Part shown: positions 31,564-47,433 of the stretch, one piece after another
How the letters are laid out: each line of letters opens with the position of its first letter
Numbering within the stretch: the first letter of the stretch is position 1
Source: an uncultured Hyphomicrobiales bacterium
GTDB lineage: Bacteria; Pseudomonadota; Alphaproteobacteria; Rhizobiales; Beijerinckiaceae
Assembly: GCA_903877935.1 (NCBI GenBank)
Contig: CAIRGA010000071.1
Location: 1 to 48,147, forward strand
DNA length: 48,147 bases
Direction of reading: 5' to 3'
Notes under the pieces: model-generated
Seen by the model: the letters and a program-made list of their open reading frames with translations, nothing else
Database searches by the model: none
Told to the model about the DNA's origin: nothing
Position numbers and translations under genes: made by a program

Positions 31564-31622
31564 TTATCCTGAATTTTTTAATCCAATGAGGGACGGACTA
31601 ACGCAAAAGCCGTGTGATCAAA

Positions 31623-31670
31623 TGTGGTATTTTGTGGTATATTGACTGTTTTTGTGGAATGCGGTATGCA
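31623..31670 (+). promoter_or_regulatory. phnW promoter with four TGTGGTAT-type repeats
   Basis: A sigma-70-like promoter TTGACT (31642-31647), 17-nt spacer, TATGCA (31665-31670) lies about 37 bp before the phnW start. Repeats TGTGGTAT (31623-31630), TGTGGTAT (31633-31640), TGTGGAAT (31653-31660) and TGCGGTAT (31660-31667) surround and overlap it. The first two are 10 bp apart, one helical turn. The same motif stands upstream of the DeoR-type gene. Sites overlapping the -10 and spacer suggest repression; the upstream pair could also allow activation. Confidence 0.6.
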
Positions 31671-31706
31671 GCTGAAGTGAAGATGGCTGATCCTGGAGAC
31701 ATTCCT

Positions 31707-32855
31707 ATGACACGCGCTTTTCGTGGGCCTGAAGGCCAAGCAACAACCCCTTATCTGCTGACGCCCGGCCCGCTCACCACAACGCCGGCGGTCAAAGAAG
31801 CGATGCTTCGAGATTGGGGATCATGGGACGCGGACCTTCGTAGAGTTGTGGCCAATATTCGAGAACAATTGCTCGACATTGCAGACGCCTCGAACGGGTT
31901 TGAATGCGTCTTGTTGCAAGGATCAGGATCCTACGGCGTTGAAGCAGCTCTGGGCAATTTTGCCCCGAAAGACAAAAAAACACTTATGCTGACCAATGGC
32001 GCCTATGGCGAACGGGCCATTAAAGCACTCGCCTATATGAATCGTGACTTTATCTCGTACGAAACGGACGAACTTGAGGCGCCGTCCGCCGATGAAGTTG
32101 CCGCCTTACTAAAAGCCAACCCAGATATTGGGGCGGTATTCTTGGTTCAATGCGAAACAACGAGTGGTATCGTCAACCCCATTGAGGATATTGCGGCGGT
32201 CGCACAAAAGGCTGGCTGCATTGTTATTCTCGATGCCATGTCGAGTTTTGGGGCGATGGATATCTCGATGAAACGAATGGGCATTGATGTTGTCATTTCA
32301 TCAGCGAATAAGTGTATCGAAGGCGTCCCAGGCTTTACCTATGTGATCGCACGTCGTGATTTGCTGGCAGCCTCACAAGGCATGTCGCATTCGCTGGCGC
32401 TCGATCTTTATGAGCAATGGGCCTATATGGAAAAGAGCGGTCAGTTTCGCTTTACACCCCCAACGCATACGCTCGTTGCCTTTTCTAAAGCGCTCGAACA
32501 ACACGCTGCCGAAGGTGGCGCACCGGGACGCCTCGCGCGCTATAAGAAAACCGCGAAGACGCTGCGTGATGGTATGCGAAAGATCGGGCTTTCACCGCTT
32601 TTGGGCGACAATGAAACAGGGCCAATTATCCAGACCTTTGCAACGCCACGCGACAAGAATTTCGACTTCATGACATTCTATGAAGGTTTGAAACAGCGGG
32701 GCTTTATTATCTATCCCGGCAAGCTCACCAAAAAGCCAAGCTTCCGAGTAGGCAATATGGGGGCGCTTGATTGGGAAGTCATGGAGATGCTCGTGGCTGC
32801 TACTCAAGCCACCCTTAAAGAAATGAATGTCACAGACCTCACGCCTGCGGAATAA
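31707..32855 (+). CDS. phnW: 2-aminoethylphosphonate:pyruvate aminotransferase
   Basis: A 382-residue class V PLP aminotransferase converting AEP plus pyruvate to phosphonoacetaldehyde plus alanine. The N-terminal YLLTPGPLTT motif, QGSGSYGVEA, ILDAMSSFGAM and the PLP lysine K202 in SSANKCIEG are all PhnW features. The open frame starts at 31614. The ATG at 31707 (MTRAFRG) is chosen because GGAG stands eight bases upstream. It is the first gene of phnW-phnA-phnY, with gaps of 6 and 5 nt. That neighbourhood separates it from other class V aminotransferases. Confidence 0.93.
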   Translation: MTRAFRGPEGQATTPYLLTPGPLTTTPAVKEAMLRDWGSWDADLRRVVANIREQLLDIADASNGFECVLLQGSGSYGVEAALGNFAPKDKKTLMLTNGAYGERAIKALAYMNRDFISYETDELEAPSADEVAALLKANPDIGAVFLVQCETTSGIVNPIEDIAAVAQKAGCIVILDAMSSFGAMDISMKRMGIDVVISSANKCIEGVPGFTYVIARRDLLAASQGMSHSLALDLYEQWAYMEKSGQFRFTPPTHTLVAFSKALEQHAAEGGAPGRLARYKKTAKTLRDGMRKIGLSPLLGDNETGPIIQTFATPRDKNFDFMTFYEGLKQRGFIIYPGKLTKKPSFRVGNMGALDWEVMEMLVAATQATLKEMNVTDLTPAE

Positions 32856-32861
32856 AGAGCA

Positions 32862-34100
32862 ATGAACAAAGCACCCGTAACGATTAATGGTCGCGTTTTT
32901 AATTGGCCAAAACGAACCCTTGTTGTCATCTGCCTTGATGGGTCAGAACCCGCTTACACGGATGAAGCGCGGAAACGCGGCTTGATGCCTAATCTTGAGA
33001 AGCTGATAGCAAAGGGCGGTGAATATCGCGCCGATAGCGTGGTGCCGAGCTTTACGAACCCGAACAATCTTTCCATCGCAACAGGCCGCCCACCGGAAGT
33101 GCACGGCATTTGCGGGAATTATCTGATCGACCCTGACACGGGGCTCGAGACGATGATGAATGACCCAAAGTGGCTCCGTGCCCCAACCATCTTTGCAGAA
33201 TTTCAAAAGGCCGGCGCTCGCATTTTGATGGTGACAGCGAAAGATAAGCTCAGACTGCTGCTGTCGAAGGGGTTGGTTTATGACGGGAGCGCGATTGCAT
33301 TTTCTTCAGAGAAGGCCAATATCGCAACCCTTGAAGCAAATGGAATAGCCGATCCATGCACGGCGTGGGACATGGCGTTACCCGATGTTTATTCCGGTGA
33401 TTTATCGGAATTCGTCTTTTCCGCAGGCGTGAAATTAATACCGCAGATGAAGCCTGATCTCGTTTACCTTTCAACCACCGATTTTATCCAGCATAAATTT
33501 GGGCCCACTGAAGCAGGCGCGCTGGATTTTTATGCGATGTTTGATCGCTATGTTGGCGAACTTGACGCGTTGGGCGTTACACTTATCATCACCGCCGATC
33601 ATGGCATGAATGACAAGCACACCGCGGATGGCAAGCCTGACGTCCTTTATTTGCAGGATGCGCTCGATCAAAAATTTGGATCCGGCAAGAGCAAAGTTAT
33701 TTTGCCAATTACGGATCCCTATGTTGTCCACCACGGCGCACTTGGATCTTACGCAGCCATCTATCTTTATGGTGCGGTGGCCTCAGACGTGACCGATTAT
33801 ATCCGCTCGCTTGACGGTATCGACGTCGTGCTAACAAAAGCCGAGGCCTGCGGGCGATTTGGCCTACCGCCGGACCGGACGGGCGATCTCGTTGCTATTT
33901 CGGGCGGGCCTAACAAATCGAAAGTGATCGGTACCTCGGCAGCAGCGCATGATTTATCAGGCCTCGACGTTCCGCTGCGCTCCCATGGCGGCTTGACGGA
34001 ACAGACCGTACCTTTCTTTATCAACGGACATGTAAGCGAATTGCCAAAGGGCTTGAGAAATTTCGATGCCTTTTTCGTCGGCTGTAATTTCGCGGAGTAA
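32862..34100 (+). CDS. phnA: Phosphonoacetate hydrolase
   Basis: A 412-residue alkaline-phosphatase-superfamily metalloenzyme cleaving the C-P bond of phosphonoacetate to acetate and phosphate. The nucleophile is T65 in [10 protein letters not shown]. Two-metal ligands are visible at D26 (ICLDGS), D207 and H211 (TTDFIQHK), D246 and H247 (TADHGM) and H375 (RSHGG). The gene lies between phnW and phnY, matching the operon known from Sinorhizobium meliloti. No signal peptide is seen, so it is cytoplasmic. The acetate it releases may feed the acetate kinase encoded 4.5 kb downstream. Confidence 0.94.
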
Positions 34101-34105
34101 GACCT

Positions 34106-35548
34106 ATGAGCAAGATTATTAAGGAAACGATGCGCATCGGCGGTAAACAGGTTTCGACCGATGGCGCTGTCAACGTCCATTATCCTTATACCAATGAAGT
34201 CATCGGCACGGTTCCGGCCGGGCGAGCAGAACATGCGCGCGAGGCGTTTAGGATTGCCGCAAATTATAAGCCAAAGCTTACCCGATACGACCGACAGAAG
34301 ATTCTCTTCCGAACGGCTGAATTGATTAATGCGAGAAAGGACACTCTTGCCCCACTCATCACAAGTGAGCTCGGTATATCGCTGAAAGATTCATTGTATG
34401 AATGCGGCCGTGCCTATGATGTTTTTTCCTTAGCGGGACAATTGGCCATTCTGGATGATGGCCAAATCTTTTCATGTGATTTAACGCCGCACGGTAAGTC
34501 GCGTAAAATTTATACAAAGCGCGAACCTGTAAGAGCCATCTCAGCAATCACGCCATTTAATCATCCGCTCAATATGGTGTCGCATAAATTAGCCCCCGCG
34601 ATTGCAACCAATAACTGCGTTGTGTGCAAGCCGACCGAATTAACGCCCCTCACTGCGATTGCCCTTGCGGATATTTTATATGAGGCAGGGCTACCACCCG
34701 AGATGGTGCAGATGGTAACGGGCATGCCCGATGATATCGGCGATGAGATGGTTACCAATCCCGATATCTCGCTGATTACCTTTACCGGTGGCGTGAAGGT
34801 TGGAAAAATGATTGCCGCAAAGGCCGGGTATCGGCGGGCTGCGTTGGAACTTGGCGGCAATGATCCGCTAATTATTTGCGATGATTTGTCAGATAGCGAT
34901 CTCGACAAAGCGGCCGAACTCGCTGTTCAGGGTGCCACAAAAAATTCCGGCCAACGGTGCACAGCCGTGAAGCGCATTTTGGTTATGGAAAAAGTAGCCG
35001 ATGCCTTTGTAGAAAAAGTTTTGGCAAAGGCCAAGAAAATCAAATTCGGCGATCCGATGGATCCGAATACGGATCTTGGAACCGTGGTTCATGAACAGGC
35101 TGCGGCAATGTTTGAAAAGCGTGTTTTTATGGCCGAGGAACAAGGGGCAAAAATACTGTACCATCCCGGTCGCCAAGGCGCTTTGCTACCCCCAATCGTC
35201 GTTGACTATGTGCCCCATGGCTCTGAGCTTGTCTTGGAAGAAACATTCGGGCCGATTATTCCGATCATTCGCGTGCCGAACGACGTCGAAAAAGTCATTG
35301 AAATTTCGAATTCGACGGCCTTCGGTCTTTCATCAGGCGTTTGCACCAATCGGCTAGACCGTATCACGGCGTTTATCGAAGGACTCGACGTCGGCACCGT
35401 GAATATTTGGGAAGTGCCTGGCTACCGGATTGAAATGTCGCCTTTTGGTGGCATCAAGGATTCGGGCAATGGTATTAAGGAAGGTGTATTAGAGGCCATG
35501 AAATTCTTCACCAATGTGAAGACCTATTCGCTGCCATGGCCGGCATAA
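34106..35548 (+). CDS. phnY: Phosphonoacetaldehyde dehydrogenase
   Basis: A 480-residue NAD-dependent aldehyde dehydrogenase oxidising phosphonoacetaldehyde to phosphonoacetate. The catalytic cysteine is C285 in [11 protein letters not shown], and the general base is E248 in LELGGND. The NAD-binding [11 protein letters not shown] and FTGGVKVGK stretches are normal. The RCTAVKR context is that of PhnY/GapN-like members. Placement five bases after phnA fixes the role. With phnW and phnA it completes the AEP to acetate plus Pi route, which differs from the PhnX (phosphonatase) route. Confidence 0.93.
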
Positions 35549-36953: not shown

Positions 36954-36985
36954 TTGGACCAGAATGGACAAATGGGTCCAGAATG
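36954..36985. promoter_or_regulatory. Candidate MocR operator in the divergent aminotransferase/mocR region
   Basis: The 66-bp region contains TGGACC (36955-36960) and its complement GGTCCA (36975-36980). TGGAC repeats 10 bp apart (36955 and 36965), and CCAGAATG repeats 19 bp apart (36959 and 36978). Closely spaced direct repeats are typical of MocR-family sites between regulator and divergent target gene. The second repeat overlaps the first possible start codon of the regulator. Confidence 0.5.
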
Positions 36986-38551
36986 ATAGAGCCAGAAGGT
37001 GAGTTTCTCTTGGAACACGGTATCCCACGCCCTTTACGGACGGAACTGTCAATCGCATCCGCAACCGATGAGACGGTTATTTGGGATTCGTTGTTCCAGA
37101 AATTTTCCCATAGTGGTCGTTCTCTCCAAGTTCAAATTCGGCAGATGATTGTTGCTGCGATTGAAGAGCGAAGGCTTCCTTCCGCCGCTCGGATGCCTTC
37201 GAGCCGTGATCTGGCCGCTATTCTTGGTGTCGCGCGCAACACGGTTGTTCTTGCCTATCAGCAGCTTGTTGACGAAGGATTTTTGGAATCCCGCGAACGG
37301 AGCGGCTATTTTGTAAAAAGTGCTTCGCCAGTCGACCATTTGGGACGAGAGCCTCGGCCTTTAGCGGGTGACAGCTCCAATAAGCCGCAATGGTCAAACC
37401 GCTTTACGATGCAGCCATCGACGCGGCGTAACATTACGAAAACCAAAGAATGGCTAAGCTACCCCTATCCGTTTTTATATGGTCAATTCGATCCGGGGCT
37501 CTTCCCAACCAATGATTGGCGTGAATGTGCACGCGGCGCTTTAAGCGTGCTGGAAATCCATAATTGGGCTCGTGATTTGGTCGATGGCGACGATCCCGAA
37601 TTGATCGATCAATTAAGGCTTCACGTTTTGCCTCGCCGGGGCATCTGGGCAAGCCCTGATGAAATTATTGTTACGATCGGTGCGCAACAGGCGCTCTATT
37701 TGCTGGCGCGCCTTCTCTTGAATAAAGAGTCGCGCGTTGGCGTTGAAGACCCCGGCTATCCGGATGCTCGAAATATTTTTTCAATTATGACCGATCATGT
37801 CGTCGGACTTCCCATTGATGAAGATGGGCTCCAGATTTCTGAAGGCCTGAAAGAATGTGATTACGTCTATGTAACGCCGGGTCATCAATGCCCAACAACT
37901 GTAACAATGCCTGTTGAACGGCGTAAAAATCTGCTCGATTTTGCGGCCAAGCGCGACATTGTTGTTATTGAGGACGATTACGAGACCGAGTTTTTGCCTA
38001 ACGCACGAGAGACGCCTTCGCTTAAAAGTTTCGATCAATCGGGTCGCGTGCTTTATGTTGGCAGCCTTTCCAAAGTGTTAGCCCCGGGCTTAAGGCTTGG
38101 CTATATTATAGCACCCGCTGAAGTCGTCCGTGAATTACGCGCCTTACGGCGATTAATGTTAAGGCATCCTCCTTCGAACAATCAGCGAGCTGCCGCATTG
38201 TTTTTGGGACTTGGTCACTACAAAGCGCATATCCGTAGGCTTGGCTCGTCACTCGGGACACGTGCAAGTCAGCTTGATGCAGCTCTGAGAAAGCATTTGC
38301 CAGAATTTAATTTTTTTCTTGGCCAAGGTGTATCAAGTTGCTGGTTAAAGGGACCTGATGCATTGGACGGACGGGCTCTTGCTGTTGCGGCACAAGATAA
38401 AGGCGTGTTGATCGAGACGGGTGATATTTTTTTCAAAAGTGATGAACCGCCCAGCAATTTTCTCCGCTTGGGTTTTTCATCGATTCCCTCGGAACGCATT
38501 GAACCGGGAATTGCGGCATTAGCCGCTGCCTGGCATGGGATGAAAACCTAA
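36983..38551 (+). CDS. MocR-family regulator (GntR wHTH fused to aminotransferase fold)
   Basis: 522 residues. A GntR-type winged HTH (about 45-112) includes MPSSRDLAAILGVARNTVVLAYQQL. A type I aminotransferase-like domain (about 160-515) keeps the PLP lysine K364 in GSLSKVLAPGLRLGY. MocR proteins sense amino compounds through PLP chemistry, as GabR and TauR do. The ATG at 36983 lacks a clear ribosome binding site and overlaps repeat sequence; a TTG at 37010, preceded by AAGGTGAG, is an alternative start. It heads a tight plus-strand run with ackA (3 nt gap), the ureohydrolase and the acylase. It probably controls these and the divergent aminotransferase. Confidence 0.88.
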   Translation: MIEPEGEFLLEHGIPRPLRTELSIASATDETVIWDSLFQKFSHSGRSLQVQIRQMIVAAIEERRLPSAARMPSSRDLAAILGVARNTVVLAYQQLVDEGFLESRERSGYFVKSASPVDHLGREPRPLAGDSSNKPQWSNRFTMQPSTRRNITKTKEWLSYPYPFLYGQFDPGLFPTNDWRECARGALSVLEIHNWARDLVDGDDPELIDQLRLHVLPRRGIWASPDEIIVTIGAQQALYLLARLLLNKESRVGVEDPGYPDARNIFSIMTDHVVGLPIDEDGLQISEGLKECDYVYVTPGHQCPTTVTMPVERRKNLLDFAAKRDIVVIEDDYETEFLPNARETPSLKSFDQSGRVLYVGSLSKVLAPGLRLGYIIAPAEVVRELRALRRLMLRHPPSNNQRAAALFLGLGHYKAHIRRLGSSLGTRASQLDAALRKHLPEFNFFLGQGVSSCWLKGPDALDGRALAVAAQDKGVLIETGDIFFKSDEPPSNFLRLGFSSIPSERIEPGIAALAAAWHGMKT

Positions 38552-38554
38552 TTC

Positions 38555-39748
38555 ATGAAGCTTGTTCTTGTTCTCAATGCTGGTTCGTCAAGCGTTAAGT
38601 TTGCTTTGATCGATGTCGATCACTATGGCAACGAGCAAGATATCGCCCGTGGCGCCGTTGATGGCATAGGGCAAACGTCTCGATGGAATGTTCATCGATC
38701 TGATGGTGTGATGAATAGCGAAACTACAATAAAAGACGGCATAGCCTCTAATCACAAGGAGGCTTTATCGCACATCGTTACATGGATCGATAAAAATTAT
38801 GGACTAACGTCACTTGCGGGGGCCGGGCATAGGGTGGTCCATGGCGGTGCGCACTTTACGAAGCCGGTCCGATTGACGGCTGAAAATATTGAAGCGCTTC
38901 GTAAACTCGTTCCGCTAGCACCTTTGCATCAGCCACATAATCTGGCGGCAATTGATAGTCTAACCGACTTAGCGCCAACGCTTCCGCAAATTGCTTGCTT
39001 TGATACGGCCTTTCACTCAACGATACCGGATGTTGGACGTGAATTCGCGCTGCCGCGTTCAATCACGGCATTGGGAGTCAAGCGATATGGCTTTCATGGA
39101 TTATCCTATAGCTATATTGCGAATGAATTAGCCAACAAAAATCCTGAACTTAGTAAGGGCCGAGTACTCGTCGCGCATCTGGGTAATGGTGCGAGCCTTT
39201 GTGCGATGAAGGAAGGCAAGAGTATTGCAACAACGATGGGATTTTCGGCGCTTGATGGTTTGATGATGGGAACGCGGACAGGTTCAATTGATCCCGCCGT
39301 TATCTTTTATCTTATGCGGGATCAAGGCATGAGTGCCGATGATATAGAGACCCTGTTTTATCAAAAATCGGGCTTGCTTGGTGTGTCGGGAATATCGAAC
39401 GATATGCGGACACTGCGCGAGGCCGCTCACAACAATCGTCATGCACGCGAAGCGCTTGAACTGTTTACCTATCGGATTATTCGCGACGCCGGAGCGATGA
39501 TTGCGGTTCTGGGCGGTATTGATGCTTTGGTCTTTACCGCCGGTATTGGCGAAAACGATAGGCAGTTGCGCGCCGATCTTATACGCGGTTTATCTTTTAT
39601 GGGCTTCGCACTTGATGAAGCTGCGAATGCTGGGAAGAAAAGAAAGATTAGTGGCGAGGTTGGACCGGTAGCATTGGTCATACCTACGAATGAAGAAGTG
39701 ATGATCGCCCGCGAAACGGCGATGCTCATTGATTGTAAACATAAGTGA
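38555..39748 (+). CDS. ackA: Acetate kinase
   Basis: A 397-residue enzyme interconverting acetate/ATP and acetyl phosphate/ADP. The N-terminal VLNAGSSSVKFAL (acetate kinase signature 1), GHRVVHGG, RYGFHGLSYSYIA (signature 2) and MMGTRTGSIDP are present, and the C-terminal FTAGIGEND closes the ATP site. No phosphotransacetylase gene adjoins it, which is unusual for ackA. Its place in a MocR-led operon, just after a pathway that releases acetate from phosphonoacetate, suggests acetate recovery or ATP formation from acetyl phosphate. A three-base gap follows the mocR stop. Confidence 0.94.
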   Translation: MKLVLVLNAGSSSVKFALIDVDHYGNEQDIARGAVDGIGQTSRWNVHRSDGVMNSETTIKDGIASNHKEALSHIVTWIDKNYGLTSLAGAGHRVVHGGAHFTKPVRLTAENIEALRKLVPLAPLHQPHNLAAIDSLTDLAPTLPQIACFDTAFHSTIPDVGREFALPRSITALGVKRYGFHGLSYSYIANELANKNPELSKGRVLVAHLGNGASLCAMKEGKSIATTMGFSALDGLMMGTRTGSIDPAVIFYLMRDQGMSADDIETLFYQKSGLLGVSGISNDMRTLREAAHNNRHAREALELFTYRIIRDAGAMIAVLGGIDALVFTAGIGENDRQLRADLIRGLSFMGFALDEAANAGKKRKISGEVGPVALVIPTNEEVMIARETAMLIDCKHK

Positions 39749-39755
39749 GGATATC

Positions 39756-40727
39756 ATGACGATAAAGGACCTAAAGCGCTATCCAGAAATGTCCGAGCCA
39801 CAATTGCGACCGCGCTATTCTGGCGTAGCAACTTTTTTTCGTCGGCCATTGGTTGATACAACCGACGGTGTTGATATCGGTGTTATTGGTGTGCCATTCG
39901 ATGGAGGCGTTACAAACCGCACGGGCACACGGCACGGCCCTCGTGCCGTACGGGAGCAAACAACACTCGTACGTCGGGTTAATCAGGCAACGGGCCTTTC
40001 ACCCTTCGATCTTGTCAATGTTGCGGATTGTGGCGATGCGTTTTTTGAAGCACCTTATGAGCTGATTAGCGCACACAAGGAGATCGAAGCATTTTTTGCG
40101 AAAGTCAAAGGCTCCGGTACCACGACACTGGCCGTTGGGGGAGATCATTCGATCTCCTTGCCAATCTTAAGGGCTATTGCGAAAGACGGTCCGGTTGGCA
40201 TGGTGCATATTGATGCGCATTGCGACACCGGCGATGATTATCTCGGTTCAAAATTTCACCATGGCGCGCCGTTCTCCCGCGCCGTCGAGGAGGGACTGCT
40301 CGATCCGAAGCGGGTGATTCAAATTGGCATTCGAGGCTCCATCAATCACAAGGATATGTGGAAGTTCAGCCATGATAGCGGCATGCGCGTTGTCTATATG
40401 GAAGAATTGACCGACAAAGGTTGGGCTTGGGCGGCTGAGGAAGCGCGCCGGGTTGTGGGCGACGGCAAGACCTATCTTTCCTTCGATATCGACAGTCTTG
40501 ATCCTGTATTTGCGCCTGGAACGGGCACGCCCGAATCCGGTGGCCTTACGATGATCGAAGCCCAGCGCATGATCCGCTCGCTCAATGGTATTGATTTTAT
40601 CGGCGGCGATCTTGTCGAAGTATCGCCCCCTTTTGACAATGGAACAATCACATCCATGAATGGGGCTAATGTTCTCTTTGAAATTTTATGCGTGCTCGCG
40701 ACGGCGCGTCAAAAGCGAAATGGTTAG
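39756..40727 (+). CDS. Ureohydrolase (agmatinase/guanidinobutyrase family)
   Basis: A 323-residue manganese enzyme that removes urea from a guanidino compound. All six metal ligands are visible: H131 (GGDHS), D153, H155 and D157 (IDAHCDTGD), D244 and D246 (SFDIDSLDP). The C-terminal GGDLVEVSPPFD motif fits the agmatinase/guanidinobutyrase/guanidinopropionase branch rather than arginase. The exact guanidino substrate cannot be told from sequence. The start at 39756 has GAGG close upstream; the frame extends to 39729 inside ackA. It lies 7 nt after ackA and 3 nt before the acylase gene. No guanidine riboswitch is visible. Confidence 0.87.
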   Translation: MTIKDLKRYPEMSEPQLRPRYSGVATFFRRPLVDTTDGVDIGVIGVPFDGGVTNRTGTRHGPRAVREQTTLVRRVNQATGLSPFDLVNVADCGDAFFEAPYELISAHKEIEAFFAKVKGSGTTTLAVGGDHSISLPILRAIAKDGPVGMVHIDAHCDTGDDYLGSKFHHGAPFSRAVEEGLLDPKRVIQIGIRGSINHKDMWKFSHDSGMRVVYMEELTDKGWAWAAEEARRVVGDGKTYLSFDIDSLDPVFAPGTGTPESGGLTMIEAQRMIRSLNGIDFIGGDLVEVSPPFDNGTITSMNGANVLFEILCVLATARQKRNG

Positions 40728-40730
40728 GGC

Positions 40731-43055
40731 GTGACCGAACACGAAACGTGGCAAATTGGCGGCCTTAAGGCGAATGCGGAAATTCTCATCGATCGATGGG
40801 GTATTCCGCATTTGCGGGCGAGCAATCTTGATGATCTTTTTTTTCTGCAGGGTTTCAACGCGGCTCGCGACCGGCTTTGGCAAATTGACCTGTGGCGAAA
40901 GCGCGGTCTCGGGCTATTAGCAGCTGATTTCGGGCCGGGCTATTTGGCGCAAGATTATGCGTCGCGGCTTTTTCTATACCACGGGGATATGCAAGCGGAA
41001 TGGGATGCTTATTGTCCCGATGCCGAACAAATTTGCACCTCGTTCGTAAAAGGTATCAATCAATACATCGATCGTATTGAAAGCGATCCTTCGCTTCTAC
41101 CGCCCGAATTCGGAATCATGGGTACAAGGCCTGCCCGTTGGAAGGCAGAAGACGTGGCGCGGATCAGAAGCCATGGGCTTTGCCGAAATGTACTATCGGA
41201 ACTTTTGCGGGCACGACTTCTGACCGATGCCGATCGAGCTACCGATGAGATAAGGCGACCTTTGGAGCCAGAGCATATTCCGGGTAACATTCCCGGAATG
41301 GATTTGGGTTCGATCCCGATTGATATAGCGACGCTTTTTAAGCTTGGCATCGCCGGGGTTACGTTTTCCGAAGCACGCCTTAACGCAAAACTTGAGGATG
41401 CGTGGAGCTGGACCGAGATCAACGACCTTGGCGAGGTGATCGAGGAAATCGCCACAACAGGGTCAAATAACTGGGTTGTGGCAGCCGAACGCTCGGCAAC
41501 AGGGCGGCCAATTTTGGCCAATGATCCTCACCGTGCGCATGGATTACCTGGTCTGCGCTATCTCGTGCATTTAACAGCACCCGGCTTCGACGCTATTGGT
41601 GCTGGCGAACCCGTCATCCCTGGAATTTCCATCGGTCATAATGGTACATCCGCTTTTGGGCTAACCATTTTCTACACGGATCAGGAAGATCTCTACGTGT
41701 TGGATACTGATCCAGACACTCCTACGCGATATCGTTGGCAAGACGGTTGGCGAGAGTTGCGCGCGGTGGATGAAACGTTCCGTGTAAAAAATTCACCAGA
41801 CCAGATTTTGAAACAGTATTTTTCACATCACGGTCCGGTACTTTTGCAGGATGAGCGACAAAATCGAGCCTATGCAGTTCGCTCGGTATGGTTTGAGCCC
41901 GGTGCGGCACCCTATTTGAAGAGCATAGCTTCGATGCGAACAAAATCGCTTGGTGAATTCCGGGAAGCCGTTCGTGGATGGGGCGTGCCGTCCGTCAATC
42001 TTGTTTATGCGGATACGTCAGGCGAAACCGCATGGGCGCCCGTTGGTTTTACGCCAATCCGTAAAAATTGGGATGGGTTATTACCCGTTCCCGGCGACGG
42101 CACCTATGAATGGCAAGGGTTTTTAGACAATGAAGAATTGCCGCGGACGGTTAATCCGGCCGATGGGTTCCTAGCAACTGCCAATGAAATGAACCTGCCG
42201 GACGGGTTCCCACACGCCATCGGCTATGAGTGGGTAGATCGGGCGCGAGCTGACCGTATCAACGAGGTGTTGAGCGGGAAGCAAAAAATCTCGTTGGAAG
42301 ATTGCTGCGCATTGCAGAATGACCCTGTTTCAATACCGGCACGTCGTCTGGCTCATTTGGCACAAACGGCATGTCGGGACGAACCGGAAACCGGTCTTCT
42401 AGAAAATTGGGCGGGAGAGCTTAAGGAAGATAGCGCCGCGGCGGCATTGATTGAAATTTGGTGGACCCTTCACCTAAGACCCGCCCTCCTTGCAGCCCTA
42501 GTTCCCCATAAGGCGGTTCGCAACTTGGTGGGGGCGGGCGATATTGAATCTCTCTTGCGAGCGCTCGAAGTGCCCGATAACCGATTTGGTGCCCACCCGA
42601 CGAAGGAGCGCGATACACTTCTGCGCGATACGCTGAAAGCGGCCTTTCAAGATTGCCAACGTCGTTTGGGCGCTGATTCTGGCGTCTGGCGCTGGGGGGA
42701 TATTCACTATGCCGCCTTTGAACATGGCCTTTCAGCCGTCTCGAAATCCGCTAAAGACTGGACCGTTGGCCCCTTCCCCCATGGTGGCAGCGGCTCCAGT
42801 CCGATGCATACGGGATATCGCTCGTCGGATTTTCGGACGACGCAGGGAGCATCCGTGCGGATCGTCATGGATGTTGGAAATTGGGACGCTAGCCTGTGGA
42901 TTAATGCGCCAGGCCAATCAGGCGACCCAAGATCTCCGCAATTTGGTGACCTTGCCCCGATTTGGGCAAAAGCTGGATATGTACCCATGCTTTACAGTCT
43001 AAATTCGATAAAAAAGCAATTGATCAAGCAAATCTCGCTTGTTCCTATAATTTAA
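40731..43055 (+). CDS. Penicillin acylase-family Ntn hydrolase, apparently cytoplasmic
   Basis: A 774-residue S45-family amidase. The precursor should cleave itself at G244/S245 in ATTGSNNWVVA, exposing Ser as N-terminal nucleophile; the short segment before it is the spacer peptide. The alpha-chain motif IDRWGIPHLRASNLDD and the beta-chain ILANDPHRAHGLPGLRYLVHL are typical. Unlike classical penicillin acylases and AHL acylases there is no signal peptide: the protein starts TEHETWQIGG from a GTG. It would cleave an N-acyl amide inside the cell. The acyl group and amine are unknown; the operon suggests an acylated omega-amine. Confidence 0.85.
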   Translation: MTEHETWQIGGLKANAEILIDRWGIPHLRASNLDDLFFLQGFNAARDRLWQIDLWRKRGLGLLAADFGPGYLAQDYASRLFLYHGDMQAEWDAYCPDAEQICTSFVKGINQYIDRIESDPSLLPPEFGIMGTRPARWKAEDVARIRSHGLCRNVLSELLRARLLTDADRATDEIRRPLEPEHIPGNIPGMDLGSIPIDIATLFKLGIAGVTFSEARLNAKLEDAWSWTEINDLGEVIEEIATTGSNNWVVAAERSATGRPILANDPHRAHGLPGLRYLVHLTAPGFDAIGAGEPVIPGISIGHNGTSAFGLTIFYTDQEDLYVLDTDPDTPTRYRWQDGWRELRAVDETFRVKNSPDQILKQYFSHHGPVLLQDERQNRAYAVRSVWFEPGAAPYLKSIASMRTKSLGEFREAVRGWGVPSVNLVYADTSGETAWAPVGFTPIRKNWDGLLPVPGDGTYEWQGFLDNEELPRTVNPADGFLATANEMNLPDGFPHAIGYEWVDRARADRINEVLSGKQKISLEDCCALQNDPVSIPARRLAHLAQTACRDEPETGLLENWAGELKEDSAAAALIEIWWTLHLRPALLAALVPHKAVRNLVGAGDIESLLRALEVPDNRFGAHPTKERDTLLRDTLKAAFQDCQRRLGADSGVWRWGDIHYAAFEHGLSAVSKSAKDWTVGPFPHGGSGSSPMHTGYRSSDFRTTQGASVRIVMDVGNWDASLWINAPGQSGDPRSPQFGDLAPIWAKAGYVPMLYSLNSIKKQLIKQISLVPII

Positions 43056-43208
43056 GTAGGATGGTGCCAGTTAGCATAAGTTGTTTGGTTCACATAAAAT
43101 ATATTTGCCCTTAATTTAGACAGTTTTAGCTTCGTTGCTACGTATAGAGGCAAAATATATTTCCATTCTGCCGACTTCGTTTAAATTTTATTCTGTAAAT
43201 GCTTTTTC

Positions 43209-43260
43209 GTGTCATCGGCGTAATCAGGGTGTCATAATCAATGTGACATCTGATTGTCAT
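43209..43260 (+). promoter_or_regulatory. PHO-box-like TGTCAT repeats upstream of the ABC importer
   Basis: GTGTCAT (43209-43215), GTGTCAT (43229-43235), GTGACAT (43243-43249) and TTGTCAT (43254-43260) resemble the PhoB half-site CTGTCAT/CTGACAT. The last two are exactly 11 bp apart with a 4-nt spacer, as in the 18-bp PHO box, and match 12 of 14 consensus positions. The other spacings (20 and 14) are irregular. The box ends 15 bp before the likely -10, slightly longer than the usual 10 or so. Confidence 0.5.
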
Positions 43261-43281
43261 ACTTGTCTTTAATGGTATAAA
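43254..43281 (+). promoter_or_regulatory. Probable promoter of the ABC importer operon
   Basis: TTGTCA (43254-43259) and TATAAA (43276-43281) are separated by 16 nt, a good sigma-70 pair. The -35 coincides with the last PHO-box-like half-site. The leader from there to the GTG start is about 100 nt. Confidence 0.6.
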
Positions 43282-43384
43282 AAGTCCGGGTTCTTGCTCT
43301 GTCAGGTCAAACAGAGGGCGAGAGTCGGCATGTCCGCTTTATTTTAAGTTGATGCGTTCCACAAACAGAGATGGAGAATTCACT

Positions 43385-44521
43385 GTGATCAAGAACACGA
43401 CATCTGTAAGCCGCCGTTCCTTTCTAAAGAGCACGGCAGCTCTCGGCCTCGGTGCAGTTGCTGCACCAGCGCTGATTTCCCGCTCCGCACTCGCCTCCTC
43501 TGGCGAGCTCAATTATATGGGCTGGGCCGGCTACGACTTCAAAGACGCCTTTGCTTCGTTTACGAAAGCAACCGGCATCAAGATGAACTTCACGGAACAG
43601 CCTGATAACGACACGATCTTTGCTCAAGCAAAGCTTGCTATCCAAACGGGCGCAATCGACGTCATCGAACCTACCGTTGACCGGGTGCAGTCCTACAACG
43701 AAAATGGCCTGGTTCAGGCTTGGGACATGAGCAAGATCAAGCTCGACCAGTGGGAAGCTGGCCTTGTAAGCGGTCAGGCTGGCGACATGGCCACGATCGA
43801 TGGCAAGCGTCTGTTCCTCCCCGGCGTCTGGGGCACGGAAGCATTGACCTTCAACACGAAGGACGCTCCGATGGAATACGGCAAGGCAAGCCTCGCCGAC
43901 CTTTGGGATCCAAAGTTTGAAGGCAAGGTCTGCGTGCGCGCTCACTCCTCGCTCGCAGCCCTTGGCCGCGTGTTGGATGCGCAGGGCAAGCTTCCGCATC
44001 CATTCATGGAAGGCTACAAGGACGACGCCAAGATGAAGAAGATCTGGGACGTTATCCTCGCCGAAGCCATCAAGCATAAGAAGAACATCGCTCAATTCTG
44101 GAAGGGCGAAAACGAAGCTCAGGCTGGTTTCCGTACCAATGGTTGCGTGATCGGTCTGACGTGGGATTCCACCGGCTACAACATGGGCAAGGAAGGTCCT
44201 TTCTCCTACATCGCTCCTAAGGAGGGCGCGTTTGCTTGGAACCAGGGCAACATGCTCATGAAGAACGCCAAGAACGTTGAACAGGCGCATGCGTTCCAGA
44301 ACTGGGTATCTTCGGCTGAAGGTTCCGCACTTTGGGCAACCGCATTCTCGGCCAACCCAGTGGGCAAGGGCGCAGGCGCGAAGCTCGATGCAGCGGTTGC
44401 AAAGTTCTACACGGACTCGTTCCCAGGCGACGCGCTTTCGAAGCTTTGGTGGTGGCCCGTTCAGACCAGCTCGTTCTTGAAGCTGCGTGCTGAATACGCC
44501 GACAAGTTCATCGCGGCATAA
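43385..44521 (+). CDS. ABC transporter substrate-binding protein, spermidine/putrescine (PotD/PotF) or PhnS type
   Basis: 378 residues from a GTG with GGAG eight bases upstream; the frame opens at 43349. The N-terminus is a twin-arginine signal (SRRSFLK, R10-R11, then a hydrophobic stretch to ALASSG). The mature part matches family 1 PotD-like binding proteins (LNYMGWAGYDF, KATGIKMNFTEQPD). Codon use is strongly biased, with almost only AAG for lysine, which suggests high expression. A strong terminator follows directly. The gene order binding protein, ATPase, permease, permease is that of PotFGHI and PhnSTUV. Polyamine or aminophosphonate are the main candidate ligands. Confidence 0.87.
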   Translation: MIKNTTSVSRRSFLKSTAALGLGAVAAPALISRSALASSGELNYMGWAGYDFKDAFASFTKATGIKMNFTEQPDNDTIFAQAKLAIQTGAIDVIEPTVDRVQSYNENGLVQAWDMSKIKLDQWEAGLVSGQAGDMATIDGKRLFLPGVWGTEALTFNTKDAPMEYGKASLADLWDPKFEGKVCVRAHSSLAALGRVLDAQGKLPHPFMEGYKDDAKMKKIWDVILAEAIKHKKNIAQFWKGENEAQAGFRTNGCVIGLTWDSTGYNMGKEGPFSYIAPKEGAFAWNQGNMLMKNAKNVEQAHAFQNWVSSAEGSALWATAFSANPVGKGAGAKLDAAVAKFYTDSFPGDALSKLWWWPVQTSSFLKLRAEYADKFIAA

Positions 44522-44607: not shown

Positions 44608-45705
44608 ATGAGTGAAGACGTTCATTTATCCCAAATTTGCATGGATTTCGGCAGTTTCCGCGCGGTCAATAATGTTGAAGTAACGATCAAGCCCGGCGAG
44701 TTCTTCTCCTTTCTAGGCCCATCGGGCTGCGGCAAGACGACGATCCTCCGTTTGATTTCCGGCTTTATGGAGCCGACCCAAGGTGCGGTAAAAATTGGTG
44801 GCAAAGACATGAAGGGCATCCGCCCGAATGCCCGCCCGACCGCCCTTATCTTTCAGAATTTAGCACTCTTCCCGCTGATGCCCGTTTGGGAAAACATCAC
44901 ATTTGGTCTTGAAGTTCGCGGTGTTTCAAAAGAAACTCGCCGCGCAAAGGCGGAAGAGTTGCTGCAACTCGTTGATCTTCACGATTCGGCCGACAAGCGC
45001 ATCAGTCAATTGTCCGGTGGCCAGAAGCAACGCGTGGCAATTGCCCGCGCGCTTGCGGTTGAGCCTAAGGTGATGTTGCTCGATGAGCCGCTTTCAGCGC
45101 TCGATCTGAAGCTTCGCCAGCATATGCGCGCGGAATTACGCGCCATTCAAAAGCGTACCGGCGTTACCTTTATCTATATCACGCATGATCAGGGCGAAGC
45201 GCTCGCTATGTCGGATCGGGTTGGTGTGATGTCGCAAGGTATTTTGCAACAGGTCGCTACGCCGCAGGAAATCTATAACAATCCTGTAAACGGCTTTGTT
45301 GCTTCCTTCGTTGGTGAGAACAATGTCATCAATGGAAAGGTGGCGTCGGTTAACGGCGGAATGGCGCAGTTCGAAACGGCCAAAGGGTCGTTCCACGCGA
45401 AACTCGGTGCTTCGGTTGGTTTAGGTGATCAAGCCAAACTTTTCGTCCGACCCGAATTTTGTTCGCTTCAACCGGCAAGCGAAACAAAAGCCAATTCGAT
45501 TGCAGTTGAAGTAACCGAGATTGCCTTTGAAGGTAATTTCGTGAACGTTTTTGTTCGTGATAACAGCGGCGATACGCATATGGTTCAGGTTCAAAATGAT
45601 CCATCTCTGCCGCCGCCTGCGCCGCATACGGCCTGTCAAATGGTCTTCAATCCCGAAAGCTGCATGATTTTGTCAGAAGCCGCAACTTCCCGGCACGGGC
45701 ATTGA
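44608..45705 (+). CDS. ABC transporter ATP-binding protein (PotA/PotG/PhnT type)
   Basis: A 365-residue ATPase. Walker A is GPSGCGKT (37-44), the signature LSGGQ is at 135-139, Walker B ends at E160 in VMLLDEPLSALD, and the switch histidine is H193. A C-terminal TOBE domain (about 285-355) matches the PotA/MalK class. It energises import through the two downstream permeases. It is 14 nt before the first permease gene. Confidence 0.9.
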   Translation: MSEDVHLSQICMDFGSFRAVNNVEVTIKPGEFFSFLGPSGCGKTTILRLISGFMEPTQGAVKIGGKDMKGIRPNARPTALIFQNLALFPLMPVWENITFGLEVRGVSKETRRAKAEELLQLVDLHDSADKRISQLSGGQKQRVAIARALAVEPKVMLLDEPLSALDLKLRQHMRAELRAIQKRTGVTFIYITHDQGEALAMSDRVGVMSQGILQQVATPQEIYNNPVNGFVASFVGENNVINGKVASVNGGMAQFETAKGSFHAKLGASVGLGDQAKLFVRPEFCSLQPASETKANSIAVEVTEIAFEGNFVNVFVRDNSGDTHMVQVQNDPSLPPPAPHTACQMVFNPESCMILSEAATSRHGH

Positions 45706-45719
45706 GGGGCTAGCGAGAC

Positions 45720-46604
45720 ATGCAAGAACTTATTCGGCGATATGGGATTAGTTTATCGGTGATTATGGCGGCGATGACGGCCTTTTGGCTTCTCGCATTG
45801 GTTGTTATTCCAAACCTTGTGCTCTTTAAGTTCTCGTTTCGGCTCTATCTTCCCGTCGATCAATTGGGCGGCCCCAATGACGTCTATACGCTGAAAAATT
45901 ACGCCACGTTTTTTAGCAGCCCTATTCACATCAACGTGTTTTTCTTGACGATTCTATACAGCAGCCTGGTGACCATTATCTGCCTCGCCGTTACTTACCC
46001 ACTCGCCTATATACTCGCTAAAGTGTTGAAACCAACCGACACCGCGACATTCTTTCTCGTACTACTCATTCCATTATGGGTGAGTGAGATTTTAAGATCG
46101 TTTGCTTGGTTCATTATTCTATCAATGCAGGGGCCATTAAATGCGATCCTCACCGGTATCGGATTAATCGATAAGCCGATCCGTTGGATATCAGGCTTTC
46201 AATCGGTCGTTATCGGTTTGGTCTATGCCTATATCCTCTTTATGTTGTTCCCGATTTACAACGCGATCCAAGCGCTTGATACGAACCAAATCGAAGCCTC
46301 GCAGGATCTTGGTGCATCCACTTGGCGCACGCATTGGCGGGTTATCATTCCACACGCGAAGCCCGGTATCGCATCGGGTTGCGTGATGGTGTTCATGCTC
46401 TGCGCGGGTTCTGTGGTTGTGCCAACCACACTTGCCTCAACCAATTCGCGTTGGTTCACGGAAATCATCCAACAATGGATGTTTGAAGGCCTCGATTGGA
46501 ATGTTGGATCAGCATATGCCTTCCTTCTTCTCGCCTTGTGCATCCTGTTTGTTAGCCTCGTCATGCGCGTACTGAACGTACGCCTTGTCGATATTGCCAA
46601 GTGA
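45720..46604 (+). CDS. ABC transporter permease (PotB/PotH/PhnU type)
   Basis: A 294-residue inner-membrane protein with six helices. The cytoplasmic EAA loop is EASQDLGASTWRTHWRVIIP, the docking site for the ATPase. It is the first permease of the importer and overlaps no neighbour. The second permease starts 10 nt after its stop. Confidence 0.9.
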   Translation: MQELIRRYGISLSVIMAAMTAFWLLALVVIPNLVLFKFSFRLYLPVDQLGGPNDVYTLKNYATFFSSPIHINVFFLTILYSSLVTIICLAVTYPLAYILAKVLKPTDTATFFLVLLIPLWVSEILRSFAWFIILSMQGPLNAILTGIGLIDKPIRWISGFQSVVIGLVYAYILFMLFPIYNAIQALDTNQIEASQDLGASTWRTHWRVIIPHAKPGIASGCVMVFMLCAGSVVVPTTLASTNSRWFTEIIQQWMFEGLDWNVGSAYAFLLLALCILFVSLVMRVLNVRLVDIAK

Positions 46605-46614
46605 GGGACGGACG

Positions 46615-47433
46615 ATGAATTCCCAAACCTTCGCTAAGATTACGATGCGGGTCTATCTCGCACTGTTTCTTGCTTACATGCTGCTGCCTTTGGCAATCAT
46701 GGGGGGCGCAGGCCTTAACAATACGCGGTTTCCATCGGTATATCCGTGGGTCGGCATCACCGATCGGTGGTTCGTCGATTTATGGAATGACCAGCGCATG
46801 TGGGGGGCGGTGCGCAACACAACATGGGTTGCGTTGGCCGTTGTCGCAATTTCAGTTCCGATAGGAACGGCAGCCGCTATTTTGTTGAACAGCGTTAAGC
46901 CGAAAGTTCGCTCCTTCCTCTATGGCTTTATGGTGGCGCCAATTTTGACGCCTGGTGCCGTCATTGGCATTTCAACGCTACTGTTCTGGAATAGTTTTGG
47001 CGTATCGGCTGGGCTTTATCTCTCGGTCTTGGGACAGGTTTCGTTTGTAGCAGCCTATGTGATGCTCTTGGTGCTTGCGCGGCTACAAAGCTTTGATCCG
47101 GGACTTGAAGAAGCCGCCCTCGATCTTGGTGCAAGCCATGGACAAGTTATTCGCCGCATTCTTGTGCCGCATCTTTATCCGGCCATTGGTGCGGGTGCGA
47201 TTATCGCCTTTTTCCAATCGGTCGAAAATTTCAACGTGACTTTGTTTACGCGCGGCAACTCCGACACGTTGACCGTTTATGTCGGGTCGAAGATTCGCTC
47301 AGGCATCACGCCAACCATCAATGCGCTGGCGCTCTTGCTGATTATCGTCACGGTGGTCTGCGCCATTATCTACGAAGTATTGCGCCGTCGGGCCGAAAAG
47401 CGCGCTGCTGCGTTGGTCGCTGTTGAAGAATAA
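46615..47433 (+). CDS. ABC transporter permease (PotC/PotI/PhnV type)
   Basis: A 272-residue protein with six helices and the EAA loop EEAALDLGASHGQVIRRILV. The start at 46615 has GAGGGACGG upstream; an in-frame start at 46585 inside the previous gene is less likely. It closes the four-gene importer, and a strong terminator follows 7 nt after its stop codon. Confidence 0.9.
   Translation: MNSQTFAKITMRVYLALFLAYMLLPLAIMGGAGLNNTRFPSVYPWVGITDRWFVDLWNDQRMWGAVRNTTWVALAVVAISVPIGTAAAILLNSVKPKVRSFLYGFMVAPILTPGAVIGISTLLFWNSFGVSAGLYLSVLGQVSFVAAYVMLLVLARLQSFDPGLEEAALDLGASHGQVIRRILVPHLYPAIGAGAIIAFFQSVENFNVTLFTRGNSDTLTVYVGSKIRSGITPTINALALLLIIVTVVCAIIYEVLRRRAEKRAAALVAVEE

Follow-up and report, generated by a model that had tools for sequence, protein, structure and literature searches.

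A PHO-box-like direct repeat at the promoter of a PotABCD-type importer in an uncultured Hyphomicrobiales bacterium

Half-sites and core promoter upstream of the importer genes

Does the promoter of an importer with the gene set of a polyamine transporter carry a PHO box on which PhoB could act, and would this say anything about the cargo? The question is raised by the window analyzed here (the whole stretch of 48,147 nucleotides), which is one entire contig of a 2.70-Mb genome assembled in 226 contigs. A first-pass annotation had described four TGTCAT/TGACAT half-sites upstream of the importer, the last two with the 11-bp spacing of a PHO box, overlapping a -35 sequence and followed after 15 bp by the -10. 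This description proved accurate. The half-sites, all on the plus strand, are TGTCAT at 43210-43215, 43230-43235, and 43255-43260 and TGACAT at 43244-43249; they span 51 bp with start-to-start spacings of 20, 14, and 11 bp, and therefore only the last pair (43244 to 43255) has PHO-box spacing. The last half-site shares bases with the hexamer TTGTCA, and the distance from TGTCAT to TATAAA is 15 bp. The features of the region are as follows.

43210-43215, plus strand: first TGTCAT, absent from the six other orthologues in the genus alignment and probably outside the element
43230-43248, no strand assigned: 19-bp imperfect palindrome TGTCATAATCAATGTGACA, a putative operator that covers the second half-site and the larger part of the third
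43244-43260, plus strand: PHO-box-like 11-bp direct repeat TGACAT-N5-TGTCAT, assigned from its pooled score, its conservation, and the layouts of distant orthologues
43254-43259, plus strand: -35-like hexamer TTGTCA, which shares bases with the last half-site and is unchanged in 7/7 genus orthologues
43273-43281, plus strand: extended -10 TGG-TATAAA, 16 bp 3' of the -35, with TATAAA itself at 43276-43281
43385-44521, plus strand: substrate-binding protein with a PotD fold, GTG start
44608-45705, plus strand: ABC ATPase, PotA/PhnT2-like
45720-46604, plus strand: permease, PotB-like
46615-47433, plus strand: permease, PotC-like

Over the whole window, the motif TGWCAT is no more frequent than expected (39 observed, 40.1 expected). 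In 20,000 sequences simulated with a first-order Markov model of the local composition, four half-sites within 51 bp never occurred and three or more occurred in 6; a genome sample of 765,668 strand-bases contained no cluster of three. The four half-sites are clustered beyond chance, yet they are not one PHO array or operator. TGACAT-N5-TGTCAT, two TGTCAT-type direct repeats 11 bp apart with one mismatch, is among 13 places in the 2.70-Mb genome that lie within one mismatch of TGTCATNNNNNTGTCAT.

Passages of the literature describe the PHO box as two 11-nt direct repeats (PMC4415409), with the Escherichia coli consensus CTGTCAT-A(AT)A(TA)-CTGT(CA)A(CT) (PMC3465305). They also record confirmed PHO boxes at genes without obvious phosphate regulation (PMC4415409) and a rhizobial study in which one of three predicted PHO boxes was excluded (PMC3131613). 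The window shares with PhoB-activated promoters the two TGTCAT-type half-sites 11 bp apart but differs in that its first half-site is TGACAT, its TA lies at 15 bp, and its downstream half-site doubles as the -35.

PHO boxes of the genus and conservation of the window pair

The genome encodes PhoB (332.5 bits; NCBIfam cut-off, 296.2), and reading of the translations places genes for a sensor kinase, PstSCAB, and PhoU ahead of phoB. Its pstS promoter carries TGTCACAAAGCTGTCAT and its phnC promoter carries TGTCATGTCGTTGTCAT plus a weaker third repeat upstream; matches of the PhnC protein carry the annotation phosphonate ABC transporter ATP-binding protein. In the genus, a PHO box was obtained upstream of 9 of 10 pstS genes, the second pstS of genome G004 yielding no training box, and of 7 of 7 phnC genes. 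Boxes 5' of a phoR-like gene were left out of training because they lie within coding sequence. In all 16 pstS and phnC boxes, the TA of the -10 lies exactly 10 bp past the second half-site, whereas in the window-type promoter it lies at 15 bp in 7/7 genus orthologues, which departs from the 10-bp layout of a PhoB promoter.

Matrix scoring, proposed in the first-pass annotation as a check, gave a divided answer. In a pooled half-site model, the window pair scores 16.5 bits, compared with 16.9 to 21.6 for the genus PHO boxes, and 1 of 765,028 background positions reaches that value. A strict 17-column matrix gives it 6.2 to 6.3 bits, compared with 19.9 to 27.3 for the training boxes, and 55 to 60 of the 765,028 positions do as well. 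With the same matrix, the relatives G004 and G009 score 9.6 and 15.5 bits. When the matrix was trained on the boxes of one gene and applied to those of the other, the window pair scored 5.0 and 9.8 bits, and true boxes scored 7.8 to 20.8 (phnC) and 10.1 to 17.5 (pstS, the second copy of G004 aside), respectively. A PHO box at phnWAY was considered and rejected: of the 15 best matches in a PHO-box scan of the whole window, none is 5' of the DeoR-type gene or of phnW, and the second-best falls within phnW on the opposite strand.

The genus alignment comprises the window and six other species, with orthologues 89 to 97% identical. Because TTGTCAT, followed after 15 bp by TAT preceded by TGG, is kept in all seven, the last half-site belongs to the promoter TTGTCA-N16-TATAAA; in the -10, TGGTAT is invariant (7/7), with TATAAA in six species and TATTGT in G002. 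The half-sites at 43230 and 43244 are shared with G006, G008, and G010 only. The hexamer found 11 bp 5' of the invariant TGTCAT is TGACAT in these four species, TGTCGT in G002, TTTCAT in G009, and GTTCAT in G004, so that the 11-bp spacing of the pair is exact in 7/7 orthologues if one or two changes are allowed. Pooled-model scores are 16.5 bits for the TGACAT species and G002, 16.6 for G009, and 11.6 for G004. Among the four close species, column identity rises abruptly at 43229, from 72/173 (43056-43228) to 53/55 (43229-43283), and is 91/101 in the leader (43284-43384). An alternative pair, CGTAAT-N5-TGTCAT at 43219, scores 13.1 bits in the window but is missing in the three closest relatives and was rejected.

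These data are compatible with an ordinary sigma-70 promoter that overlies a decayed ancestral PHO box, with no PhoB action in the genus and with constitutive expression or control by other factors. The -35/-10 unit with its TGG is invariant while the upstream half-site varies, the spacing to the -10 is shifted by 5 bp, and the strict-matrix score is low. A stricter version, a -35 plus chance only, was in fact favored after the genus alignment and the strict matrix; the distant orthologues described below weakened it, and it is kept as part of this rival. Decay is also at odds with the upstream half-site itself, which stays within one or two changes of TGTCAT in the diverged orthologues. We consider this decay reading unlikely.

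Layouts in distant orthologues

Among seven orthologues of intermediate identity (60 to 78%), six have a pair of at least 10 bits, a persistence that also argues against decay, and two carry TGTCAC-N5-TGTCAT; none of the seven has TA at 10 bp. In 25 far orthologues (about 44 to 51% identical), the mean best score, compared over spacings of 7 to 20, is highest at a spacing of 11 (7.7 bits; the next is 4.5). A pair of at least 10 bits is present in 11/25 far orthologues and in 18/472 control regions. L180, a near-duplicate of L179, was counted in the spacing test (n = 25) and excluded from the TA tests (n = 24).

The strongest test is the -10 position, a feature unused in choosing the pairs. TA lies exactly 10 bp past the pair in 18/24 far orthologues and in 3/258 control regions of the same loci; among the controls whose pair reaches 4 bits, it does so in 2/37. 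The spacing control of this test drew on 19 of the far loci. Because the orthologues share kinship, the orthologue counts given here are not independent trials. When TGTYAY-N10-TA alone served as the selector, it picked out 15/24 far orthologues and 2/258 controls. In the loci so selected, the hexamer 11 bp upstream matches TGTCAY in 4.07 of 6 positions, compared with 1.0 to 2.8 of 6 for hexamers at the remaining distances from 7 to 17. Six of the 24 (L181, L182, L185, L194, L196, and L197) lack the 10-bp layout at the model's best pair, and a strong pair is missing from L178 (5.6 bits) and from the 60% identical L031 (5.7 bits). L031 and G048 were placed in no group; G048, 40% identical, has a 17.0-bit pair and TA at 10. 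A matrix built from the 18 far sites, only partly independent because these sites were first chosen with the pstS/phnC model, scores the pstS and phnC boxes of the genome itself higher than any of the 765,028 background positions and gives the window pair 10.2 bits, which 72 of the 765,028 reach.

The far orthologues thus share the 10-bp distance with the PhoB-activated pstS and phnC promoters of the genus. phnC-type promoters on rhizobial plasmids have the same 11-bp/10-bp geometry, with TGACAY as the first half-site, in three of four cases (Sinorhizobium meliloti SM11, S. fredii, and NT-25, with Allorhizobium pseudoryzae as the exception). PhoB controls phoCDET of S. meliloti. In two Mesorhizobium soli strains, a full PHO box whose TA lies at 10 bp (L186 3460 and L187 3524) precedes an autotransporter gene that adjoins potD on its upstream side. 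Paralogues with 39% identity (in G001, G003, G005, G007, and G011; L046-L050 and L119-L123) were likewise placed in no group; a 16.5-bit pair, TGTCATGAATTTGTCTT, is present in those of G003, G005, and G011 and absent from those of G001 and G007. In four of the five genomes this transporter adjoins the same aldo-keto reductase gene, and GGACC-type sites occur in its promoter in G001, G003, G005, and G011.

The 10-bp layout in 18 of 24 far orthologues points to PhoB-type promoters across much of the family; it occurs in none of the seven intermediate or the seven genus orthologues, and the genus of the window retains the pair with the layout changed. Pho control seems to be ancestral in the importer family. 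We favor, at a probability of roughly 55%, the reading that the importer family inherited a PhoB-type (PHO-box-like) element, which lies at 43244-43260 in the window and still matters there. What stands of the earlier PHO-box proposal is the last pair, for which the pooled score, the conservation of spacing in the genus, the far layouts, and the TGACAY of the SM11 promoter all speak; the four half-sites as a single operator do not stand, and the low strict-matrix score, the 15-bp offset, and the fit of the upper sites to the palindrome weigh on the other side.

A mechanism can be proposed along these lines. In the distant relatives, the second half-site lies 10 bp 5' of the TA of the -10, a position from which PhoB would activate a promoter that lacks its own -35. 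In the genus of the window, the pair is retained, a self-sufficient -35, TTGTCA, is fused with the downstream half-site, and the -10 lies five bases, about half a helical turn, further downstream. PhoB, the presumed binder of the pair, might then modulate a self-running promoter or, by covering the -35, restrain it. In the four closest species, the upstream palindrome probably brings in a second regulator.

The palindrome and ornithine decarboxylase promoters

At the potD promoter, the palindrome is kept in the window, G006, G008, and G010. A pattern symmetrized from the potD site alone finds one other place in the genome within two mismatches (it has one), and about 0.04 matches at up to one mismatch are expected from permuted palindromes; four further places match with three mismatches. 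The second palindrome, TGTCATAATTTTTATGACA, lies at L114 1415-1433 (G000:C167, in the genome of the window) 5' of an ornithine decarboxylase gene. The leader of this gene matches the Rfam families speF and ar45, and the palindrome ends 10 bp 5' of a promoter-like sequence recognized by reading, TTGCAA-N17-TATTTC.

Exact matches to TGTCAYAWNNATTATGACR, a pattern fitted to most of the sites found, occur in the 12 genomes at seven decarboxylase promoters (G000, G001, G002, G006, G008, G009, and G010) and four potD promoters (G000, G006, G008, and G010) and nowhere else. Fitting made no use of the decarboxylase sites of G006 and G010, which lie at contig breaks and were assigned from the sequence that flanks them. 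The decarboxylase site of G004 differs from the pattern at one position and the remaining places listed differ at two; in G003 and G005 the site is degraded. Because the matches fall at decarboxylase promoters, a second reading of the upper half-sites in the four species has to be taken seriously: they would form the candidate operator of a regulator that also serves polyamine synthesis.

Taken further, the palindrome at 43230-43248 would be the functional operator, import and ornithine decarboxylase would be coregulated, and the PHO-like pair would be a by-product. The low expectation for a second site, its position ahead of a decarboxylase gene with a speF leader, and the restriction of exact matches to decarboxylase and potD promoters favor this account. 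However, the palindrome at potD is confined to the four close species and missing from the 60 to 78% identical orthologues; G002, G004, and G009 lack a potD copy even though their decarboxylase promoters have one (exact or with one mismatch); and the 11-bp repeats elsewhere are left unexplained. As the second pattern was also fitted to most of the sites found, we regard this account as improbable. No greater weight is given to a composite, also improbable, in which the genus rebuilt the PHO box into a -35-containing promoter and added an operator of polyamine synthesis, so that phosphate and polyamine status would converge here.

Finally, OmpR/PhoB-family regulators often bind direct repeats of 10 to 11 bp, and the genome has eight Trans_reg_C domains, but binding of the 11-bp repeat by a member of this family other than PhoB is very unlikely, as the far half-sites and their distance to the -10 match the genus pstS/phnC promoters and the rhizobial phnC-type promoters.

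Gene neighborhood, cargo, and implications

Further genes of the window bear on the question of the cargo.

31614-35548, plus strand: phnW, phnA, and phnY (2-aminoethylphosphonate degradation), all three above the NCBIfam cut-off
36983-43055, plus strand: genes for a MocR-type regulator, AckA, a guanidinopropionase-like ureohydrolase, and a penicillin-acylase-type enzyme

The MocR regulator, AckA, and the 3-guanidinopropionase-like hydrolase accompany the importer or its 39% identical counterpart. phnWAY stands beside this module in 6 of 12 genomes (G000, G001, G002, G006, G008, and G011) and elsewhere in G004 and G009; its position could not be placed in G003, G005, G007, and G010. The penicillin-acylase-type gene (40731-43055) is present in 4 of the 12 genus genomes, the same four that have the potD palindrome. 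The closest solved structure to the "agmatinase" (39756-40727) is 3-guanidinopropionase (3nip; E value, 5.5e-105), and the neighboring pathway may therefore handle a guanidino acid. Xsc (sulfoacetaldehyde acetyltransferase, G000:C9:236-1963) is above its cut-off in 11 of the 12 genomes; together with AckA and the omega-aminotransferase, it hints at taurine-type metabolism. MocR was considered as a binder of TGTCAT and rejected: the MocR/AptA intergenic region instead has conserved GGACCA/GGTCC-type sites. These lie at 36956-36980, between the MocR gene and the divergent omega-aminotransferase gene, and are a candidate MocR operator; because the listed open reading frames overlap at their starts, the true starts of both genes are probably further in.

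The importer resembles PotABCD in gene set and fold, but its binding protein is only about 21 to 22% identical to PotD (1pot) and VcPotD1 (7xjm/7xjn) in the fold match. All four proteins score below the NCBIfam equivalog cut-offs for polyamine importers (PotD, 60.4 of 582 bits; PotA, 333.3 of 482; PotB, 166.3 of 348; PotC, 145.7 of 326). The acidic stretch LLTDDA of PotD is replaced by CVRAHS, and WMDS aligns with WNQG; the PotD residues in both stretches bind polyamine. R185, H187, S188, D99, and D261 do not vary among 29 orthologues, a set of residues that would suit a zwitterionic ligand. The fold search of the binding protein indicates a PotD-like protein and gives no verdict on the cargo.

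As in known 2-aminoethylphosphonate importers (AepXVW and PhnSTUV), phnWAY is nearby: AepXVW genes neighbor phnWAY or phnWX according to passages of PMC8316502, and passages of PMC9311074 report that full activation of Pseudomonas putida aepXVW on 2-aminoethylphosphonate as the sole P source requires PhoBR. Unlike PhnSTUV-type importers, the importer of the window scores below the NCBIfam equivalog cut-offs for PhnT2 (351.5 of 457.7 bits) and phnS2 (19.8 of 392.75), and 2-aminoethylphosphonate transport here is putative. Twenty frames that neighbor distant orthologues (AP_endonuc_2, LysR, ROK, M20, and others) have no common theme; the neighbors of L174 include cyclic-nucleotide-phosphodiesterase-like and Na/Pi-symporter-like genes, both below the NCBIfam equivalog or subfamily cut-offs. 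Among the matches listed in a literature search, we found no report of this importer as Pho regulated, and passages of PMC5127829 make no mention of spermidine, putrescine, or polyamine.

Because distant relatives carry a textbook PHO repeat, the importer may serve phosphorus nutrition. A role tied to phosphorus supply would make 2-aminoethylphosphonate or another zwitterionic organophosphorus compound the first guess for the cargo; a phosphorus-containing cargo is plausible, to about the same degree as a guanidino acid.

Many importers bear the annotation spermidine/putrescine transporter, and most of them are uncharacterized. If one clade is truly a Pho regulon importer, phosphorus compounds would be the place to look for its cargo, and a large number of annotations would need revision. 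The move of the TA from 10 to 15 bp would let one trace how a PhoB promoter becomes -35 dependent, and the palindrome common to potD and ornithine decarboxylase is a concrete lead to its regulator.
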